A DNA stretch of 64,000 bases from Pyruvatibacter mobilis (GTDB lineage: Bacteria > Pseudomonadota > Alphaproteobacteria > CGMCC-115125): positions 289,501 to 353,500 of the forward strand of contig NZ_CP051630.1 of NCBI RefSeq assembly GCF_012848855.1. The letters run 5' to 3'. The first letter of the stretch is position 1. Each line of letters begins with the position of its first letter. The position numbers were made by a program, and so were the translations under genes. This document shows, one piece after another, positions 19,316-32,358 of this stretch. The notes under the pieces were generated by a model. It was not told where the DNA came from and searched no databases. It was given only the letters and a program-made list of their open reading frames with translations.

Positions 19316-20362
19316 GCCGCCAAACCTCTCAAACTGCGGGGTGGCGCGGCCCACGTCGCTGGCCACCCACCCGAAAATCCAAACCAAACGGACGCTTTCC
19401 ACAGGCCGGCCTCACCGCCTGCCTGCCCCAATCTGGGGCGGAAAGTCCGCACGACAATCCGGCGTCACCGGATCAACCCGTCTCCTGCATTGGCACCCCG
19501 TTGAACACCGGAGCATCAGAGGACGCGGGCCGACTGAACGCCGCCTTATCGCGAATTGACCTAGGGGCCCTCGCTGACCGCTCCTGGAGCATCTGTTGCG
19601 TCGCTCGCCAGGTAACCGGCCAGGAAGACCTGAGCCTTTGGACGGGAGAGTATCCCGGAAGTGATCCCGCTCCTTTGCGGGGGATCTAAGCCCGGGCTGC
19701 CGCTCATTGCCGGCGGCGGCCCCCTTCGCCCATGCTAGGCGGGCCTGAAACGCGATACGTCGCCCCAAGCCCTGCCGAGCGCGCGGAGTGTGCCAGAATG
19801 AGGGGTTCAGAATCAAGGTCAGGAATAGTGACCTTTTTTATTGACGCCCCTACGGAGTCCAGAGGCCCGGCTCCCTCAGAATCACTTGGCGTGCAGAGTC
19901 CAGCAGAGTCAAAGCTTCACGGGAATTAACCATGATTGGGGTGCGGAGAATCAAGCTCATGTCCTCACGCGGTCTCACATCGCTTTTATGACGCTCACGC
20001 GGGACGTGATTTCCGCAGAAAACCGGGATTGTGCAAGACTTCCCGTGTCGCAAGGGCGTTTGCTGACCGGCGGTGTCCCCCGCCGCGTTTGTCCGGTTGG
20101 CAAGCCCCTTGCGCGCTTCTCTCCCTCAAATCACCAGCCCGAAATTGAGGCTAACCGCAAGGCGGTTGGCCAGGCCCCGCGGCACGCGTGTTTGCCCGAA
20201 AACAGACGTGCCTCGGTCTGCATGTCGGCCATGCCCACGCGGCTTCACAGCTGTTTGAGACGGTGAGACGGCTTCGTGAGTTCCCTTTTGAGCTTCTGTC
20301 GCCGACGTTGGAGATCGCGGTGGGGGAGCACCGAAAAGTGTCATCTTTAGAGGAATGAACTC
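19316..20362. other. Gene-poor interval of about 1.05 kb between gltB and the bufferin operon
   Basis: I find no convincing coding sequence on either strand. The part next to gltB should hold its promoter and a long leader. Visible structure includes an inverted repeat GATCCCGC/GCGGGGGATC near 19664-19688, a very GC-rich stretch to about 19760, an AT-richer stretch near 19825-19845 (CCTTTTTTATTGACG), and a CCGGCGG/CCGCCGG-like hairpin near 20067-20085 without a T run. No riboswitch family could be recognised. Confidence 0.6.
20153..20167. promoter_or_regulatory. Inverted repeat AACCGC-N3-GCGGTT upstream of the bufferin operon
   Basis: A perfect 6-bp inverted repeat about 200 bp upstream of the bufferin precursor gene, in an otherwise non-coding stretch. 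It could be an operator; no regulator family is recognised. No clear SigF-like promoter pair (GTAACC/CGAA) was found at correct spacing. Confidence 0.25.
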
Positions 20363-20659
20363 ATGAAGAACGCATCCACTGCCGCTCTCGCCGCCGCTGG
20401 TGCACTTGCCGCCGCGCTGACCATGTCTGCCTCATCGGCATCCGCTGCGGACGCGGCAGGCATGGAGAAGTGCTACGGCGTCGCGCTCGCGGGTGAAAAC
20501 GACTGCGCGGCCGGTCCGGGCACGTCCTGCGCAGGGACGTCGAAGATCGACTACCAGTCGAATGCGTGGAAGCTGGTCCCGGCCGGCACCTGTGCCTCCA
20601 TGGAGACTCCGCATGGTACCGGCACGCTTGAAGCGAACGACTCACGCCTTCCGTCGTAA
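20363..20659 (+). CDS. bufA1: Bufferin precursor (DUF2282 family RiPP, BufA1 type)
   Basis: 98 residues. A signal peptide ([20 protein letters not shown] to about residue 28, ASSASAAD) is followed by a short core with exactly four cysteines in the DUF2282 pattern: [17 protein letters not shown], then [16 protein letters not shown], then [15 protein letters not shown] lies 7 nt before the ATG. DUF2282 proteins made next to DUF692 and DUF2063 genes are bufferins: their cysteines are modified to copper-binding heterocycles and the peptide is exported to buffer excess copper. That function is taken from the family; here the full bufA-B-C-doxX gene order supports it. Confidence 0.9.
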
Positions 20660-20679
20660 TCCCAGCGCGTGAGTTGAGA

Positions 20680-21693
20680 ATGACCCGGATGGTTCCGACA
20701 CATTTGGCTCGGGCTGCGTCGTCCCCCTCGGCGCAGGCGGCATCTCCGTCCGCCGCCGGCATGGCCCCGGTCCCCCCTCAAGGGGCCGCCGACCAGCCGC
20801 TGGGATCATCCGGGCATTCGACCTTTGCCCAGCACGACGTGCTGCCGGCGTCCGCCGGGATCTCGCTGAAACCCAGCCATTACGCCACTATCCTGTCCGA
20901 CGGTGCGCACACGGATTACTTCGAGGTGCACGCCGAGAACTATTTCGGCTGTGGCGGCGCACCGCACCGCTATCTTACCGCCATTCGTGAACGGCATGCC
21001 TTGTCCATCCACGGGATCGGCCTGTCGTTGGGTGGCGCCGGAGCGCTTGATGCGGACCACCTTGCGCGGCTGCAAGGCCTCATTGACCGGTACGAACCAG
21101 CGCTTGTTTCAGAACATCTGGCTTGGTGTGCCAGTGGCGGGGCCTATTTCAATGACCTGCTGCCAGTGGCGTTGACCAATGAGGCGCTCAACACCGTGTG
21201 CCGTCATGTGTCGCAGACCCAGGATGTGCTCGGGCGGCAGATTCTGGTGGAGAACCCGGCAAACTATCTCGCATTCGAAGTCAGCGATATTCCGGAGACG
21301 GAGTTTTTGTCGGAGATGGCTGCGCGTACGGGCTGCGGTCTGTTGCTCGATATCAACAATGTTGTTGTAAGCGCCCATAATCTGAAATTCGACGCCGGCT
21401 CCTACCTTAATGCCTTCCCGATGGTTCTTGTGCGGGAAGTCCATCTTGCGGGGCATGCGGATGACAGGCGCGGGGCGGCACATCTCAAGATAGATGACCA
21501 TGGCAGCGCACCTGGGTCGGAGGTCTGGAACCTCTATCGATCTGTCATCGCGCAAAACGGCCCTGTGCCGACGACGATCGAGTGGGACCGGGATGTGCCG
21601 CCATTGGCGGATCTGGAGCGCGAGGCCCAAACGGCCCGGTCGATCCTTCAAGGTGCTGAGGGGGCAGTTGAGGCTGCCGGGCGGGGAGCCTGA
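20680..21693 (+). CDS. bufB: MNIO-family (DUF692) peptide-modifying enzyme
   Basis: About 337 residues. Start choice is open between ATG 20680, ATG 20689 and TTG 20674. A roughly 55-residue Ala/Pro-rich N-terminal extension precedes the TIM-barrel, which is longer than usual. Family landmarks are present: FEVHAENYFG, SIHGIGLSLGG, SEHLAW, VENPANYL, LLLDINNVVVSAHN, EVHLAGH and IEWDRDVPPL, which include the His/Glu/Asp/Asn ligands for the di/tri-iron centre of multinuclear non-haem iron oxidases. It would oxidise cysteines of the DUF2282 precursor. It follows bufA by 20 bp. Confidence 0.92.
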   Translation: MTRMVPTHLARAASSPSAQAASPSAAGMAPVPPQGAADQPLGSSGHSTFAQHDVLPASAGISLKPSHYATILSDGAHTDYFEVHAENYFGCGGAPHRYLTAIRERHALSIHGIGLSLGGAGALDADHLARLQGLIDRYEPALVSEHLAWCASGGAYFNDLLPVALTNEALNTVCRHVSQTQDVLGRQILVENPANYLAFEVSDIPETEFLSEMAARTGCGLLLDINNVVVSAHNLKFDAGSYLNAFPMVLVREVHLAGHADDRRGAAHLKIDDHGSAPGSEVWNLYRSVIAQNGPVPTTIEWDRDVPPLADLEREAQTARSILQGAEGAVEAAGRGA

Positions 21694-21697
21694 TCCG

Positions 21698-22528
21698 ATG
21701 TCCCGCCTCTCTGATTTGCAGGCACGCTTTGCAGCGTCCCTGCGTGACCCCGACAATGGGCAATCCATGCTTGATATCGCAGCACTTGGCGCGGACTCGC
21801 TGCCTCAACGGGCGCGGCTGGATGTTTACCGGAACAATGTTGCATCGAGCCTGATCGATGCGTTGGCAGCCCTTTATCCCGTGTGCCGGCGGTTGGTTGG
21901 CAATGATTTCTTTCAAGCGACAGCGCGTGCCTATCTGGATCGTTCTATGCCGACCCAGGCCTCGCTGATCGGCTTTGCCCCTGACTTTGCCGGCTTTCTC
22001 GTGAGCTTCGAACCGGCTCGGCAATTGCCCTATCTGCCGGACGTTGCCCGCCTCGAGCACGCCTGGCACAGGGTCTATCACGGCCCCGATGCATCACCTG
22101 CGACTGCTGAGGACCTCAAGGCCTATGCGGATGTGCGTGGCGAAAAGGAACTCGACAAGCTGGTGCTTGGTCTTGTGCCCGCCCATCACCTGCTGATGTC
22201 CCCCTATCCCATATCGCGAATTTGGGAAGCCAATCAGCCTGATCGGGATGGGAAGCTGGCCTTCTCGGATGCCGACAGGAATGAGCGCGTGTTCGTTGTG
22301 CGGCCAGGTGTCGACGTTCATGTGCTGAGAGTGTCACCGGGTGCCTTTGGTTTGCTCTGCGCAATCCAGGGCGGAATGTCGCTCGGCCGTGCGTTGATCG
22401 CGGCATTCGAAGAAGAGCCGGACTGTGATCCCCAGCAGGTTTTCGCCCAGTTGCTGACAGCTGGCAGTTTCATCTTGCCGAAGGATGCGCGAGCACTCCT
22501 TCCGGCGCATGCTTCCGGAAATGTGTGA
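21698..22528 (+). CDS. bufC: DUF2063-type partner protein of the bufferin system
   Basis: 276 residues. ATG 21698 lies 4 bp after the bufB stop with GCGGGGAG upstream. The N-terminal DUF2063 domain ([65 protein letters not shown]) is typical, and the C-terminal half is the winged-helix-like region seen in BufC proteins. It probably binds the precursor and delivers it to the DUF692 enzyme. Confidence 0.88.
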
Positions 22529-23013
22529 TGACCGAACCCACCCCTCGCACCGCGCCTTTCAATCTTGATCTGATCCGCCGGTTCAACGACCTGCTTGCCC
22601 GCGTGCCGGACTGGCTTGTGGCGCTTGCCGCGCGCGTTGCACTTGCCGGCGTTTTCTGGACGTCAGCACGCACCAAGGTTGAGGGCGTCTTTTCCATCAA
22701 GGAGAGCACCTATTTCCTGTTTCAGTATGAGTATGCCCTGCCGGTGATCCCCTATGAGTGGGCGGCCGTGATGGCCACCATTGCTGAGCACATGTTTCCC
22801 ATCATGCTGGTGTTGGGGCTTGGCACGCGCTTTGCCGCCTTGGGATTGCTCGTCATGACGGCCGTGATCCAGGTTTTTGTCTATCCGGGGGCCTGGAACC
22901 TGCACCTGCTCTGGGCCACAGGCCTTCTTTTCCTCCTGTCACGGGGCGGGGGACTGCTCTCGGTCGATCATCTCATCGACAGGCGCTTTACCGGGAGTGC
23001 GGGCGGCGCATAG
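22528..23013 (+). CDS. DoxX-family membrane protein of the bufferin operon
   Basis: 161 residues with four predicted membrane helices (for example [18 protein letters not shown] near 35 and [17 protein letters not shown] near 110). The start ATG overlaps the bufC stop (TGATG), so translation is coupled. DoxX proteins are common fourth genes of bufferin operons. A role in electron supply or membrane redox support for peptide modification has been suggested by context only. Confidence 0.85.
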
Positions 23014-23023
23014 CATCGCGCCC

Positions 23024-24067
23024 ATGCATTTTTCTTCCGACAATGCGAGTGGTGTCGCTCCTGAAATCATGGAGGCCCTGGCGCGCGCCAATGACGGGCC
23101 GGCCTGGGCCTATGGGCGGGATGAGATTACCCGCCGTCTCAATGGTCTGTTCTCGGATTTGTTCGAGCATGAGGTTACGGCCTTCCCCGTGTCCACGGGG
23201 ACTGCGGCGAATGCCCTGATCCTGGCTGCGCTGACACCGCCATGGGGCGCCGTTTTCTGTGAGCGGAACGCTCACATCAACGTGGATGAGAACGGGGCTC
23301 CGGAGTTCTACTCAGGTGGCGCCAAGCTCGTGCCGGTTGACGGGGAACACGGACGGATCGGACGGCAGGCGCTGGAAATGGCCATCGATGCCATGCCCGG
23401 CGGAGACGTTCATCACGTCGTGCCGCACGTCCTGAGCCTTACCCAGGCAACTGAGGCCGGCACGGTGTATGGCGTGGATGACGTGACGGCACTGTCCGGG
23501 CTGGCCCATGAGACGGGTCTGAAGGTCCATATGGACGGGGCACGGTTTGCCAATGCGGTTGCCCATCTTGGTTGCAGCCCGGCTGATATCACCTGGAAGG
23601 CCGGCATCGATGCGCTGAGCTTTGGCGCCACCAAGAACGGAGCGATGGCGGCGGAAGCTGCGATTTTCTTCGATCCTGCATTGGCGGCGGGCTTTGAGGA
23701 GCGCCGCATGCGCGGGGGGCATCTGCTTTCGAAAATGCGATTTCTGTCAGCACAGCTGGAAGCCTATGTGGCAGACGATCTGTGGCTGCGGCTGGCGCGC
23801 CATGCCAACCGCATGGCTACCCTGCTCGCTGATGCGGTCACGGAAACACCGGGCGCAGATCTCCTGCACCCGGTCGACGGGGACGAAGTGTTTGTGCGGT
23901 TCGGAGACGTCACGGTGATCCGGCGGCTGGCCGACTCAGGCGTTGCTTTTGTGCCCTGGGCACCGCGGGAGGGCATCATTCGCCTCGTTGCGTCCTTTCA
24001 GACGACCGAAGATGAGGTGCGTCAATTTCGCGCTGCGCTGCAACAAGCGGCGAGTGTTGCGGGCTGA
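23024..24067 (+). CDS. ltaE: Low-specificity L-threonine aldolase, PLP-dependent
   Basis: 347 residues. N-terminus HFSSDNASGVAPEIMEALARAN and PLP region SFGATKNGAMAAEA (the Lys in ATKNG would form the Schiff base) identify the threonine-aldolase branch of fold type I enzymes, which cleave L-threonine or allo-threonine to glycine and acetaldehyde. HMDGARFANAV carries the Asp that contacts the PLP ring nitrogen. It begins 11 bp after doxX and may be co-transcribed with the bufferin genes, although it has no known link to them. No good ribosome-binding site is visible. Confidence 0.88.
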   Translation: MHFSSDNASGVAPEIMEALARANDGPAWAYGRDEITRRLNGLFSDLFEHEVTAFPVSTGTAANALILAALTPPWGAVFCERNAHINVDENGAPEFYSGGAKLVPVDGEHGRIGRQALEMAIDAMPGGDVHHVVPHVLSLTQATEAGTVYGVDDVTALSGLAHETGLKVHMDGARFANAVAHLGCSPADITWKAGIDALSFGATKNGAMAAEAAIFFDPALAAGFEERRMRGGHLLSKMRFLSAQLEAYVADDLWLRLARHANRMATLLADAVTETPGADLLHPVDGDEVFVRFGDVTVIRRLADSGVAFVPWAPREGIIRLVASFQTTEDEVRQFRAALQQAASVAG

Positions 24068-24302: not shown

Positions 24303-26006
<1,704 letters not shown>

Positions 26007-26021
26007 GGAGGGCCAGAACCA

Positions 26022-26753
26022 ATGTCACTGTTCAGCCACGCTACGCTTGAACGCAACTCCCTGATCCTGACCATCGGCATCCTGCTGGTGGTCTCGATCG
26101 GCGGCATCGTGCAGATCGCACCGCTCTTCTTCCTCAATTCGACGATCGAGGAGGTTGAAGGCATGCGGCCCTACTCCCCGCTGGAGCTTGCGGGCCGCAA
26201 CATCTACATCCGGGAAGGCTGCTACAATTGCCATAGCCAGATGATCCGCTCGCTGCGCGACGAAGTGGAGCGCTATGGTCATTACTCGCTGGCTGCGGAA
26301 AGTATGTACGACCATCCTTTCCAGTGGGGGTCCAAGCGCACCGGGCCGGATCTTGCGCGCCTGGGCGGCAAGTACTCTGATGCCTGGCATGTGCTCCACA
26401 TGGCGGACCCGCGCGCCGTGGTGCCGGAATCCATCATGCCCAATTATCCGTTCCTGGCGGAGACGCCGCTTGAATATGCGGATATCGAGGCGCATCTGCG
26501 GGCCAACCGCACAGTGGGCGTTCCCTATACGGATGAAATGGTCGAGAACGCCCGCGCTGATCTCGAGATACAGGTGGATGAGTGGGGCGACTACGACGCC
26601 ATGCTCGCCCGCTATCCCAAGGCACAGGTTCGGGATTTCGACGGCAACCCGGAGATGATTTCCGAACTCGACGCACTCATCGCCTACATGCAGATGCTCG
26701 GCACGCTGGTCGACTTCTCGGCCTATCAGGCCGAGGGCGAGAACCTGCGCTAG
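26022..26753 (+). CDS. ccoO: cbb3 oxidase mono-haem cytochrome c subunit
   Basis: 243 residues. One N-terminal membrane anchor (about 12-35), then the c-haem motif CYNCHSQ preceded by IYIREG, and a distal Met (SIMPNYPFL) as sixth ligand. It passes electrons to CcoN. It starts 15 bp after ccoN with GGGAGGG upstream. Confidence 0.97.
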
Positions 26754-26765
26754 GGGAGGTCTCCC

Positions 26766-26957
26766 GTGGGATATGACGAAATCAGGGGCATCGGCGGCGC
26801 AATCGGCCTTGTGATGCTCTTCATCGGGTTCATCGGCGTCATCGCCTATGCGCTGTGGCCGGGAAACCGCAACCGCTTTGACCGGGCAGCCCAGCTGCCG
26901 CTGGAAGACGATGCCCCGAAAGGGGATATGCCTCGCAAGGAAAGGCCGTCCAAATGA
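26766..26957 (+). CDS. ccoQ: cbb3 oxidase small subunit CcoQ
   Basis: 63 residues with a GTG start preceded by GGGGAGGT. One membrane helix (GAIGLVMLFIGFIGVIAYALWP) and a hydrophilic charged tail, as in CcoQ/FixQ proteins. It stabilises the complex. Its end overlaps the ccoP start. Confidence 0.92.
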   Translation: MGYDEIRGIGGAIGLVMLFIGFIGVIAYALWPGNRNRFDRAAQLPLEDDAPKGDMPRKERPSK

Positions 26958-27853
26958 ACGACAATACGCATCAGTCTGCCCCGGACGAGCATGGCCATGT
27001 GGACGCGCACACGGGCGTCGAGACCACCGGCCACGAGTGGGACGGCATTCGCGAGCTGGACAATCCGTTGCCGCGCTGGTGGCTGTGGACGTTCTATGCC
27101 TGCATTCTCTGGTCTGTGGGCTACTGGGTCCTGTATCCGGCCTGGCCGCTGGCTGCGAGCTACACCAAGGGCGTGCTGGGTTACTCGCAACGCGACGTGG
27201 TGACCGAGCAGATCGCACAGTCGCAGGCGGCTCTGCGTGTCTATGACGATCAGATCCTCGCCGGTGACCTTGCGGATGTGCCGGGCAATCCGGAGCTGCA
27301 TTCAGTGGCGCTGGCGGGTGGTGAAAGCGCATTCGGCGATAACTGTGCGCCGTGTCACGGTCGCGGTGCCCAGGGCTTCAAGGGCTATCCGAACCTCAAT
27401 GACGACGCCTGGATCTGGGGCGGCACACTGGCCGATATCCAGGCAACCATTCGCCATGGCATCCGCTGGTCGGCCGATGAGGAAACACGCATGAACGACA
27501 TGCCGAAGTTTCTTGATGACGGCATCCTGAGCAGTGCTGAGGTGAGCGATACCACGCAATATGTGCTGTCGTTGTCGGGTCGTGAGAGCAATGCCGAAGC
27601 CGCTGCACGCGGCGGTGAGATTTTCGCGTCACAGTGCGTTGCCTGTCACATGGAAGGCGGCGTCGGCAACCAGGAACTCGGTGCGCCGAACCTGACCGAT
27701 GCCATCTGGCTCTATGGCGGCGACGAAGAAACCCTCTATGCGTCAATTGCACACAGTAGGCGCGGCGTCATGCCCGCTTGGCAGGGGCGCCTGGATGAGG
27801 CGACGATCGCCAAGCTTTCCCTCTACGTTCATTCGCTTGGTGGCGGTGAATGA
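26954..27853 (+). CDS. ccoP: cbb3 oxidase di-haem cytochrome c subunit
   Basis: 299 residues. An N-terminal hydrophilic segment contains the family motif EWDGIRELDNPLPRWW, followed by one membrane helix and two cytochrome c domains with CAPCHG and CVACHM and distal Met residues (NDMPKF, GVMPAW). It accepts electrons from soluble or membrane cytochromes. The start overlaps ccoQ by 4 bp (ATGA). Confidence 0.97.
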   Translation: MNDNTHQSAPDEHGHVDAHTGVETTGHEWDGIRELDNPLPRWWLWTFYACILWSVGYWVLYPAWPLAASYTKGVLGYSQRDVVTEQIAQSQAALRVYDDQILAGDLADVPGNPELHSVALAGGESAFGDNCAPCHGRGAQGFKGYPNLNDDAWIWGGTLADIQATIRHGIRWSADEETRMNDMPKFLDDGILSSAEVSDTTQYVLSLSGRESNAEAAARGGEIFASQCVACHMEGGVGNQELGAPNLTDAIWLYGGDEETLYASIAHSRRGVMPAWQGRLDEATIAKLSLYVHSLGGGE

Positions 27854-27867
27854 GGGGGCGAGACTAA

Positions 27868-27952
27868 CCATCCGTAGGCGGATGGCCGGAGGGGAGGTCC
27901 GGCACCGGACGCTGCGCGGGTGACACATAACCCGCAGGCGGACCGGCCTGCG
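27868..27952 (+). other. Pair of intergenic hairpins between ccoP and ccoG
   Basis: CCATCCG-TAGG-CGGATGG (27868-27885) and CGCAGGC-N6-GCCTGCG (27933-27952) are perfect 7-bp stems in the 122 bp between ccoP and ccoG. Neither is followed by a T run. They may set relative levels of structural and assembly genes by RNA processing or pausing; this is inference. Confidence 0.5.
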
Positions 27953-27975
27953 TGTCCCGGCTAGGAGGGGCAGGA

Positions 27976-29562
27976 ATGACGACGTCTGACCAGATTGCGA
28001 CTAATGGTGCAGGCATGGACGGCGGAGCCGGGGACGGGCTTTCGAAGCTCGCTCAGGAAGCCGCCGCCAATGTGTCCGGCGCAGCCTCCCCGGCACGGGC
28101 TCATGAGAAGGTTGAGCGGCACGATGTCGAGGCGGTGAACTCCTCATCGCAGCGCTCGCTTTATGCCAAGCGCCAGCCGATCCATCCCAAGCTGGTGCAC
28201 GGCACCTTCCGTAATCTCAAATGGGCAATGATGAGTGTTGCCCTCGGCGTCTATTATCTGCTGCCGTGGATCCGGTGGGACCGCGGCCCCAATGCGCCAG
28301 ACCAGGCCGTGCTGCTCGACATGCCGGGGCGGCGTTTCTACTTCTTCTTCATCGAGATCTGGCCGCAGGAGATCTACTTCATCACCGGGCTGCTGGTGCT
28401 GGCGTCGCTCATATTGTTCCTTGCGACGTCCATGTTCGGTCGTGTGTGGTGCGGCTATGCGTGTCCGCAGACCGTGTGGACCGATCTGTTCATCATGGTC
28501 GAACGCATGGTGGAAGGGGATCGCAACAAGCGCCTACGGCTTCAAAAGCAGTCAATGAGCGCGGGCAAGTTCGGACGCAAGGTGTTGAAGCACGGCATCT
28601 GGCTGCTGATTGCCGTGGCGACCGGCGGCGCCTGGGTATTCTATTTTGCTGATGCGCCCACGCTTGCGATGCAGCTTGTCTCGTTTGAAGCCCCGGCCGT
28701 CGCTTATCTCTTTATCGGCGTTTTCACCGTGACCACCTACATGCTGGGCGGCCTCGCGCGTGAGCAGGTGTGCACTTACATGTGCCCCTGGCCGCGCATT
28801 CAGGGTGCGCTGGTGGACGACCAGTCCTTTCTGGTGAGCTACCGCGTGGACCGGGGTGAACCGCGCGGCCCCCATCGCAAGGGTGAGAGTTGGGAAGGGC
28901 GTGGCGACTGCATCGATTGCAAGCAATGCGTCGTTGCCTGTCCCATGGGTATCGACATTCGTGATGGTGACCAGCTGGAGTGCATCCAGTGTGCGCTGTG
29001 CATTGATGCCTGCAATGACATCATGGACAAGATCGGCCGGCCGCGTGGACTGATCACCTACGACAATTTCGACAACCAGGAGCGCCGGGCGAAGGGCGAG
29101 AAGGCGCGGACGCGGCTGATCCGCCCGCGCACGGTGCTGTATGCGCTGCTGATCGCGGTGGTTGGCTTTGTGATGCTTGGTGTGCTGGTGACGCGTTCGA
29201 CGCTGGACGTGAATGTGCTGCGCGATCGCAATCCGCTCTTTGTGACGCTGTCCGACGGGTCCGTGCGCAACGGCTATGAGGTCAAGATCCTCAACAAACG
29301 CAACGAAGAGCGCGTGTTCATGGTGAGCGTGGAAGGTCTGGACGGCGCGACGCTGTCAACCCTCACCGAGAGTGGTCTCAAGGAACTGGCCGTTCCGGTT
29401 GCCCCTGATCGGCTGCGCAATGTGCGGCTGTTCCTGGTTCTGCCGCCGGATGGTGCGGATGCGCTGTCGGATGGCCGGGCCGACATCCGTTTCGTGATCA
29501 CGGATAGTGCTGATGGCCAGCAGGTGGTGAATGACACCACCTTCCGCGGGCCGGATTTCTGA
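27976..29562 (+). CDS. ccoG: Cytochrome oxidase accessory protein CcoG (FixG)
   Basis: About 528 residues. ATG 27976 has GGAGGGG 5 nt upstream and is preferred to an upstream GTG. Several membrane helices, WCGYACPQTVWTD and CTYMCPWPRIQG motifs, and two ferredoxin-like clusters CIDCKQCVVACP and CIQCALCIDAC. The C-terminal periplasmic Ig-like domain is present. CcoG is a membrane iron-sulfur protein that reduces Cu(II) for delivery to the oxidase. Confidence 0.95.
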   Translation: MTTSDQIATNGAGMDGGAGDGLSKLAQEAAANVSGAASPARAHEKVERHDVEAVNSSSQRSLYAKRQPIHPKLVHGTFRNLKWAMMSVALGVYYLLPWIRWDRGPNAPDQAVLLDMPGRRFYFFFIEIWPQEIYFITGLLVLASLILFLATSMFGRVWCGYACPQTVWTDLFIMVERMVEGDRNKRLRLQKQSMSAGKFGRKVLKHGIWLLIAVATGGAWVFYFADAPTLAMQLVSFEAPAVAYLFIGVFTVTTYMLGGLAREQVCTYMCPWPRIQGALVDDQSFLVSYRVDRGEPRGPHRKGESWEGRGDCIDCKQCVVACPMGIDIRDGDQLECIQCALCIDACNDIMDKIGRPRGLITYDNFDNQERRAKGEKARTRLIRPRTVLYALLIAVVGFVMLGVLVTRSTLDVNVLRDRNPLFVTLSDGSVRNGYEVKILNKRNEERVFMVSVEGLDGATLSTLTESGLKELAVPVAPDRLRNVRLFLVLPPDGADALSDGRADIRFVITDSADGQQVVNDTTFRGPDF

Positions 29563-29599
29563 GTGACACTGGCATGCTGACGAGAGGCCGGGACTGACC

Positions 29600-30124
29600 A
29601 TGAGCAATGCAGACACGCGCGGTTTTCGCCTGACGGGGTGGCATGTGCTTGCCATCTTCGTGCTGTTCTTCGGCGTCGTCTTCGCGGTCAATGGCGTGAT
29701 GACCTATGTCGCTCTCTCCACTTTCTCAGGCATCGAGACCCCGAATGCCTACCAGGAAGGCCGCGACTTCAATGAGCGTCTTGCAGCGGCGGAAGCCCAG
29801 AAGGCATTGGGTTGGGGTGTCTCCATCGAGGAAACCTTTGAAGCGGCGGGTGACGGGGCGGAAGTGCGTGTCCTGATTACCGCAAGAGATGCCGGCGACG
29901 CTGCGCTGGCAGGCTTCAGCGGCACAGTGACCTTCTGGCGCCCGGTGGTTCAGGGTGAGGACGTGGTGACGGACCTCACGGAAACCGCACCCGGCGACTA
30001 TGAAGGGATTGCCCGGCTGCCCGCGCGGGGGCATTGGGAAATGCGGCTCGAACTCGATACTGGTACGGACACTCCATACTATCTCGAGAAACGGGTATGG
30101 GCAGGCGGAAGGCAACCCTCATGA
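29600..30124 (+). CDS. ccoH: Cytochrome oxidase assembly protein CcoH (FixH)
   Basis: 174 residues. One N-terminal membrane helix (GWHVLAIFVLFFGVVFAVNGVM region) then the periplasmic FixH domain with NAYQEGRDFNERLAAAEAQ. It supports cbb3 assembly and interacts with CcoI. The stop overlaps the ccoI start (ATGA). Confidence 0.92.
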   Translation: MSNADTRGFRLTGWHVLAIFVLFFGVVFAVNGVMTYVALSTFSGIETPNAYQEGRDFNERLAAAEAQKALGWGVSIEETFEAAGDGAEVRVLITARDAGDAALAGFSGTVTFWRPVVQGEDVVTDLTETAPGDYEGIARLPARGHWEMRLELDTGTDTPYYLEKRVWAGGRQPS

Positions 30125-32358
30125 CCGATGTGTCCGCTGATGATGCCGGGCTCGGCCAGGACGTTCCCGACATACCCGACAGCTATGTCCGCGCGCTCGA
30201 CGATGGCGGCGCGGTGGTGCACTTCGTCGTTGACGGGGTTCATTGTGGCGGCTGCGTAAAGAAGGTCGAGCGGGCGGTGAACGGGCTTGCAGGTGTCACC
30301 AATGGCCGCATGAACCTTTCCACCAAACGGCTGACCGTGGCCTTTTCACCTGCGCAGGTGCGACCGCGGCAGATCGTATCGGCCATTGTCGATGCCGGGT
30401 ATGGCGCGCGGCCCTATGATCCGAAGACGCTGGAGAGCCAGCAGGCGCGCGAAGAGAAGGAACTCATTACCTGCATGGGCGTCGCCGGGTTTGCGGCGGC
30501 CAATGTGATGCTGCTGTCTGTGTCTGTGTGGGCCGGGCATTCCGGTGGCATGGAAGACGCGACGCGCGACATGTTCCACTGGATTTCCGGCCTCATCGCC
30601 ATGCCTGCCGTGGCCTATGCGGGGCGGCCATTCTTCCGGTCCGCCCTGCGGGCCTTGCGGGCCGGTGCCATGAACATGGATGTGCCGATCTCGCTGGCGG
30701 TGTTGCTGGCAGCAGGCATGAGCCTTGCGGAGACAATCGCCGGGGCAAAGCATGTCTATTTTGATGCCAGCATCATGCTGCTGTTCTTCCTGCTGATCGG
30801 CAGGACGCTGGACATGAAGATGCGCGGGCGGGCCGCGCTGGCCGCCCAGAATCTTCTGGCGCTTCGGGCTGATGCGGCAACCGTCATAGGTGATGATGGC
30901 GTGGCGCGTGCTCTGCCGGTTGAGGCGTTGCGGCCCGGGATGGTGGTCGCTGTTGCCACGGGGCAGCGGGTTGCGGCTGACGGAATTGTCGTCGACGGTG
31001 CGTCGGACCTCGATACGAGTCTGATCACCGGGGAAACAGCACCTGTGGCTGCAGCGCCCGGCACGCAGGTTTTTGCCGGTACGCTGAACATCAGTGGCCC
31101 CTTGCGGGTGAAGGTGACAGCGGGCGACGACGAGTCCCTGCTGAGCGAAATCGTCCGGCTGATGGAAGCCGCCGAGCAGGGACGCGACAGCTTTGTGCGG
31201 ATCGCGGACCGGGCTGCACGGGTCTATGCACCGGCAGTGCATATCCTGGCCGCGGCCACCTTCATTGGCTGGTGGCTGGCTGGCGGCCTTGTCTGGGACG
31301 AGGCCCTGAAGATTGCCATTGCCGTCCTGATTATCACCTGTCCCTGCGCCCTCGGCTTGGCGGTGCCGGTGGTACATGTGGTTGCCAGCGGGAGACTGCT
31401 GTCGCGCGGGGTACTCCTCAAATCATCGGACGCGCTGGAACGGCTTGCCGAGGTGGACACGATTGTCTTCGACAAGACGGGCACACTCACCCATGGCGCA
31501 CTCACGCTGGACAGGCATGGCGTTGATCCGCACCAGTTGGAACGGGCAGCACAGCTGGCGCGTGCGAGCACGCATCCGCTGAGCCGAGCCCTCGCGCAGG
31601 CAGCAGGCGATGGTCCGGCGGCGGCCGATGTGAGCGAGCATCCGGGGCAGGGGCTGATGGGCGATGTCGGCGGGGTGCCGGCGCGGCTGGGGAGTGCAGA
31701 GTTCGTCGGTGCTGGAAGCAGCTCCGACCACGCAGCACTTGGCCCGGAGATATGGTTTCAGGCGGGAGACGACGCGCCGGTGCGGTTCGGTTTCACGGAC
31801 ACCCTGCGTGGGGACGCGGGAGCGGTTATCGACTGGGCACGGTTACGTGGCCTGGATGTCGTGCTTCTGTCCGGCGACCGCCCGGGCACTGTGGCGGCCA
31901 TGGCGGGGCAGGCAGGTATCGAGGCCTTCGAAGGTGGCTTGCTGCCGCAGGACAAGATCGCGCGGCTCGAGGCCATGGCGTCCGATGGCCGCAAGGTCCT
32001 GATGGTGGGTGACGGGCTCAATGATGCGCCGGCTCTTGCAGCAGCTCATGTTTCCATGTCGCCTGCAACGGGGGCGGATGTGAGCCAGGCTGCGGCTGAC
32101 CTTGTCTTCCAGGGGCAGGCCTTGGCTCCCGTGACCGCGGCCATTGATGTGGCAGGCCGAAGCCGTCAGCTGGTACTGGAGAATTTCGGGTTGTCGCTGG
32201 CATACAACGCGGTAGCGGTGCCGATTGCCGTTGCCGGCTTCGTCACGCCGCTGATCGCAGCCCTGGCGATGTCATCTTCTTCCATTCTCGTGACGCTCAA
32301 CGCGCTGCGTTTGCGGCTCGGCCATGTGGGCATGAAGAGTGATGGAGACGATCTCTGA
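30121..32358 (+). CDS. ccoI: Copper-translocating P-type ATPase CcoI (FixI)
   Basis: About 745 residues from ATG 30121, which overlaps ccoH; the frame is open upstream but lies inside ccoH. An N-terminal HMA domain with HCGGCVKKVE, eight membrane helices, the transport motif CPCALG, phosphorylation motif DKTGTLTH and hinge GDGLNDAPAL are present. It exports or delivers copper for the oxidase CuB centre. It may also interact physiologically with the bufferin system upstream. Confidence 0.95.
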   Translation: MTDVSADDAGLGQDVPDIPDSYVRALDDGGAVVHFVVDGVHCGGCVKKVERAVNGLAGVTNGRMNLSTKRLTVAFSPAQVRPRQIVSAIVDAGYGARPYDPKTLESQQAREEKELITCMGVAGFAAANVMLLSVSVWAGHSGGMEDATRDMFHWISGLIAMPAVAYAGRPFFRSALRALRAGAMNMDVPISLAVLLAAGMSLAETIAGAKHVYFDASIMLLFFLLIGRTLDMKMRGRAALAAQNLLALRADAATVIGDDGVARALPVEALRPGMVVAVATGQRVAADGIVVDGASDLDTSLITGETAPVAAAPGTQVFAGTLNISGPLRVKVTAGDDESLLSEIVRLMEAAEQGRDSFVRIADRAARVYAPAVHILAAATFIGWWLAGGLVWDEALKIAIAVLIITCPCALGLAVPVVHVVASGRLLSRGVLLKSSDALERLAEVDTIVFDKTGTLTHGALTLDRHGVDPHQLERAAQLARASTHPLSRALAQAAGDGPAAADVSEHPGQGLMGDVGGVPARLGSAEFVGAGSSSDHAALGPEIWFQAGDDAPVRFGFTDTLRGDAGAVIDWARLRGLDVVLLSGDRPGTVAAMAGQAGIEAFEGGLLPQDKIARLEAMASDGRKVLMVGDGLNDAPALAAAHVSMSPATGADVSQAAADLVFQGQALAPVTAAIDVAGRSRQLVLENFGLSLAYNAVAVPIAVAGFVTPLIAALAMSSSSILVTLNALRLRLGHVGMKSDGDDL

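Follow-up and report, generated by a model that had tools for sequence, protein, structure and literature searches.

A canonical Buf1 bufferin operon in a Candidatus Phaeomarinobacter-type alphaproteobacterium, with a conserved hairpin sequence upstream

Four genes on the forward strand occupy positions 20363–23013 of the window (the whole 64,000-nucleotide stretch of DNA that was analysed). The first, bufA (20363–20659), encodes the Buf1 (DUF2282) precursor, a peptide of 98 aa. It is followed after 20 bp by bufB (20680–21693), encoding the MNIO bufferin maturase (337 aa when read from its ATG, with a TTG at 20674 as an alternative start), and then, after 4 bp, by bufC (21698–22528), the PME-type 1 partner, which combines a DUF2063 domain with a C-terminal RRE-like domain. 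The last gene (22528–23013) encodes a DoxX-family membrane protein (PF07681) and overlaps bufC by 1 bp (TGATG); its start is the ATG at 22528, and a GTG at 22525 is an alternative. DoxX is the usual fourth gene in bufferin clusters, and in Buf1 clusters it is frequent but not universal. The earlier note had claimed a complete bufferin operon with these positions and spacings and had proposed a profile search of the four proteins as a check. That search bears the claim out, with matches to DUF2282 (E-value 5e-26), MbnB_TglH_ChrH (7e-97), DUF2063 (2e-22) and DoxX (1.5e-16), all above the curated Pfam cut-offs, and with an NCBIfam MNIO_BufB match for the enzyme. The DUF2282, MNIO and DUF2063 profiles have one match each in the entire genome, and all three matches are at the bufferin locus.

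BufA scores 90.9 bits against PF10048 (cut-off 22.4). Its N-terminus, judged by inspection and hydropathy only, resembles a Sec-type signal peptide, having a lysine, a hydrophobic Ala/Leu stretch at residues 7–18 and, after this Ala-rich segment, an A-x-A-type site (ASA/A) near residues 26–29. The precursor contains exactly four cysteines (C37, C48, C56 and C77), as had been noticed at the outset. At least four are present in all 74 precursors compared among the relatives and exactly four in 70 of them; in the other 4 the fifth cysteine lies within the signal or upstream region. The four-cysteine pattern of BufA is thus common to the relatives, and its core is near the family consensus. In the Caulobacter Buf1 bufferin, the two central cysteines are converted to copper-chelating thiooxazoles while the first and last form a disulphide (PMC12452194). 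By this literature, the original proposal that the cysteines are turned into heterocycles by the DUF692/DUF2063 pair would hold for the two central residues only, with the outer pair predicted to form a disulphide.

The enzyme BufB matches the equivalog profile NF050167 (MNIO_BufB) with 355 bits against a cut-off of 310. Comparison with relatives shows that all family-invariant polar residues (H/D/E/N) of the MNIO domain are present: E82, H84, E86, N87, H111, H146, E191 and N192 in the first half, and D224, N226, N227, E253, H255, D272, H274, E301 and D303 in the second. In an alignment to 3bww, the DxH pair D272/H274 falls in the region of D242/H244 of HvfB, which are essential in that enzyme (PMC13419390). 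One could suppose that the operon is decaying, or that its peptide is exported without modification of the cysteines, given that precursors without MNIO genes occur elsewhere (PMC12452194). Here, the genes are intact, the invariant residues are retained and dN/dS in the MNIO core is ~0.1, indicating strong purifying selection, so that we regard such a scenario as highly improbable.

The N-terminus of BufB differs from its core. Residues 1 to ~55 (20680–20844) form an extension ahead of the catalytic domain, which begins at ~59. The frame of this extension is open in all four genomes of the genus, its insertions and deletions come in multiples of three, and its start is similar across the genus (MxRM, as MTRM or MSRM). 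These features indicate that the extension is probably translated, though a start codon farther downstream is possible. The same features could also be taken to suggest a functional new domain, for example one used in substrate docking or localisation. However, in the genus comparison dN/dS of the extension is 0.35–0.74 compared with ~0.09–0.12 in the MNIO core, the length varies within the genus, the segment before the core is mostly 5–25 residues outside the genus, and the predicted structure has pLDDT below 50 over residues 1–49. We reject the new domain on the grounds of this divergence, varying length, absence outside the genus and predicted disorder, and consider a functional role of this kind very unlikely. 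The extension is best read as a disordered, genus-specific and weakly constrained tail. The suggestion that an extension of about 55 residues on the DUF692 protein is unusual was correct insofar as it is a real open frame confined to the genus; it does not amount to a functional novelty.

A sequence search with BufC against the PDB gave no match. Its AlphaFold model (mean pLDDT 91) has its best Foldseek matches in TglI (8hci/8hi7, TM 0.65) and NGO1945 (3dee). TglI pairs with the MNIO TglH, NGO1945 is the PME-type 1 prototype, and this fold match places BufC among the PME-type 1 partners as defined by Antoine et al. (PMC12452194). Taken together, every defining feature of a Buf1 cluster that can be tested in the sequence was found, the signal peptide being judged by inspection alone, which supports the assignment to Buf1.

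Related systems share parts of this arrangement. The Haemophilus influenzae oxazolin cluster HvfABCX likewise has an MNIO, a DUF2063 partner, a DoxX-like fourth protein and a cysteine-containing precursor, which is Sec-exported, as is predicted for BufA. An oxazolin identity was rejected, as the precursor here is DUF2282 and all three other proteins score under the NCBIfam cut-offs for HvfB (217.6 compared to 360 bits), HvfC (44.4 compared to 142) and HvfX (46.4 compared to 80). The methanobactin system MbnABC also uses an enzyme of the MNIO superfamily, which there oxidises cysteines of a copper-binding peptide, but the precursor of the present operon has a putative signal peptide and the partner is DUF2063 rather than MbnC; methanobactin identity was discarded with an MbnB score of 52 bits against a cut-off of 325 and no MbnC match in NCBIfam. 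Buf2 bufferins are similar in operon type and probable role and differ in having 6 or 12 cysteines and another precursor profile. The closest counterpart is the Buf1 operon of Caulobacter vibrioides (CC3254–CC3257 / CCNA_03363–03366), which matches it in both gene families and gene order: a four-cysteine DUF2282 precursor with a signal peptide (putative in BufA), the MNIO, its DUF2063 partner and DoxX. Unlike the Caulobacter operon, the one described here has the extra disordered N-terminus on its MNIO, gltB as a divergent neighbour and a conserved RNA hairpin upstream.

Of 96 genomes, 41 (that of the window among them) contain an MNIO match, as do 45 loci from a named collection. The closest named relative is a Candidatus Phaeomarinobacter MAG at 66% identity, and three further genomes belong to the same genus as the window, which makes Candidatus Phaeomarinobacter its most likely genus. 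The order precursor–MNIO–DUF2063 occurs in ~70 loci, nearly all of those examined, mostly from Alphaproteobacteria with some from other Pseudomonadota, and doxX is usually next; this conservation of gene order is far beyond chance. In Rhodoblastus bufferin clusters (L045:4992–6656 and L049:4944–6608) the MNIO and DUF2063 proteins are naturally fused into 555 aa, similar to the HvfBC fusion engineered in PMC13419390. Among MNIO precursors, the Buf1 family is very large and counts its members in thousands, and one more operon is therefore not surprising. The locus at 20363–23013 on the forward strand is a canonical Buf1 operon; as the earlier note had said, it is a further example of a recently described class, though the family already holds thousands.

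In the window, ltaE begins 10 bp after doxX (23013–23024). The possibility that ltaE is a fifth operon gene was considered and rejected, because in all three same-genus relatives the two genes are ~500 bp apart, which makes ltaE a neighbour and not a core gene. In one of these relatives (G001, L079:7066–7449) the interval holds a 127-aa membrane protein with a weak DUF2065 match, which is absent in the window. Downstream of ltaE is a cbb3 oxidase cluster (24303–32358, forward strand) with ccoN, ccoO, ccoP, fixG, fixH and a heavy-metal P-type ATPase, and ccoN adjoins the bufferin operon in 3 of 3 same-genus genomes. Upstream, gltB is divergent from the operon in the three same-genus genomes and in several other alphaproteobacterial loci.

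We interpret the locus, with a probability of roughly 0.93, as an operon for Buf1 bufferin biosynthesis in a Candidatus Phaeomarinobacter-type alphaproteobacterium, producing an exported, cysteine-modified, copper-sequestering peptide. Gene content, gene order, family membership, the cysteine pattern, active-site conservation and the partner fold are all observed in this genome or its predicted proteins. The chemistry, export, copper binding and copper response are inferred by analogy from the work on Caulobacter Buf1, where the chemistry and copper role (PMC12452194) and the induction of the homologous operon by copper and other metals (PMC3511200, PMC8224329) have been described. According to this model, BufA would be synthesised with a Sec signal peptide and recruited in the cytoplasm by BufC through its DUF2063 and RRE-like domains; the iron enzyme BufB would then oxidise C48 and C56 to thiooxazoles, and C37 and C77 would form a disulphide. 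The mature peptide would be exported by Sec to the periplasm, where it would sequester or buffer excess copper, with DoxX in an auxiliary membrane role.

The cluster could be a genuine MNIO RiPP cluster whose peptide has its main role not with copper but in another stress, caused by gold, silver, cadmium or chromate or of the oxidative/sulphur type. Chromium and cadmium induce homologous operons in Caulobacter (PMC3511200), and in Cupriavidus gold, silver and copper do so, as cited in PMC8224329 and, for the "gig" operons, mentioned in PMC12452194. On the other side, the Buf1 family is tied experimentally to copper chelation (PMC12452194) and the BufA core is near the family consensus; the position of the operon in this genus close to genes for a cbb3 oxidase and a heavy-metal P-type ATPase is circumstantial evidence in the same direction. 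A main role other than copper thus seems unlikely to us.

The control of the operon also bears on this question. Bufferin operons in Caulobacter use a SigF promoter, GTAACC-N16-CGAA (PMC3511200), copper induces the homologous operon, and cells that lose SigF become copper-sensitive (PMC8224329). SigF/NrsF control is a feature of some Buf1 clusters only and does not define them. The SigF motif also emerged from an unbiased count of words in 70 related upstream regions, and GTAAC-N-CGAA is present in 13 of the 70 compared to a mean of 0.16 in shuffled sequences. In contrast to Caulobacter, the motif (GTAACC-N15-18-CGAA) was not found within 250 bases upstream of bufA, where the best match has 3 mismatches in 10 positions, and no NrsF was found in the genome, which does have other ECF-type sigma factors. 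We therefore do not propose SigF control of this operon, and copper induction is not simply transferable from Caulobacter, a point that favours a response to some other stress. A search for a sigma-70 promoter-like site upstream of bufA found none.

A candidate promoter or operator element is the 18-mer GACGGCTTCGTGAGTTCC at 20267–20284 (forward strand), ~80–110 nt upstream of bufA, which is identical in the 4 genus genomes and has one exact copy in the window's genome. Related sites of the form CGTGANTTY occur in 8 of the 70 upstream regions compared to a mean of 0.4 in shuffles, with 3 of the 8 belonging to the genus of the window. The upstream element TCGTGANTTCC has seven sites genome-wide, of which just one more falls in the window, within ccoN; we do not claim a genome-wide regulon.

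Farther upstream, between gltB and bufA, the sequence at 20045–20116 (forward strand) can fold into a hairpin of 29 bp with a fold z-score of −3.9. It is located ~250–320 nt upstream of bufA, and its membership in the operon is putative. Across the four genus genomes, in which the stem has 3 distinct sequences, pairing is retained in 115 of 116 pair cells; both sides have changed in three pairs, and the apical 28 nt are invariant. The single-sided changes yield G-U pairs when the forward strand is read as RNA, suggesting an RNA with the orientation of the bufferin operon. The pattern is suggestive of a conserved RNA on the operon strand, three distinct sequences being few. The hairpin is present in one copy per genome and only in the genus. 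Rfam gave no family for it, only implausible eukaryotic matches far under threshold, and a covariance search outside the genus gave no credible match. The hairpin may be part of the bufferin transcript, form an RNA of its own or act on gltB. We speculate that it could stand in for SigF/NrsF in controlling the bufferin operon, as a new regulatory RNA of leader or small-RNA type, an idea that we consider unlikely. The hairpin is possibly the sole novelty at the locus, the rest being typical.

The operon itself teaches little new, and the question it poses is by what route a signal such as copper would act on it where the SigF motif and NrsF were not found, and whether the hairpin takes part. With this locus, the known distribution of a widespread copper-protection peptide comes to include a marine lineage that is probably associated with algae.
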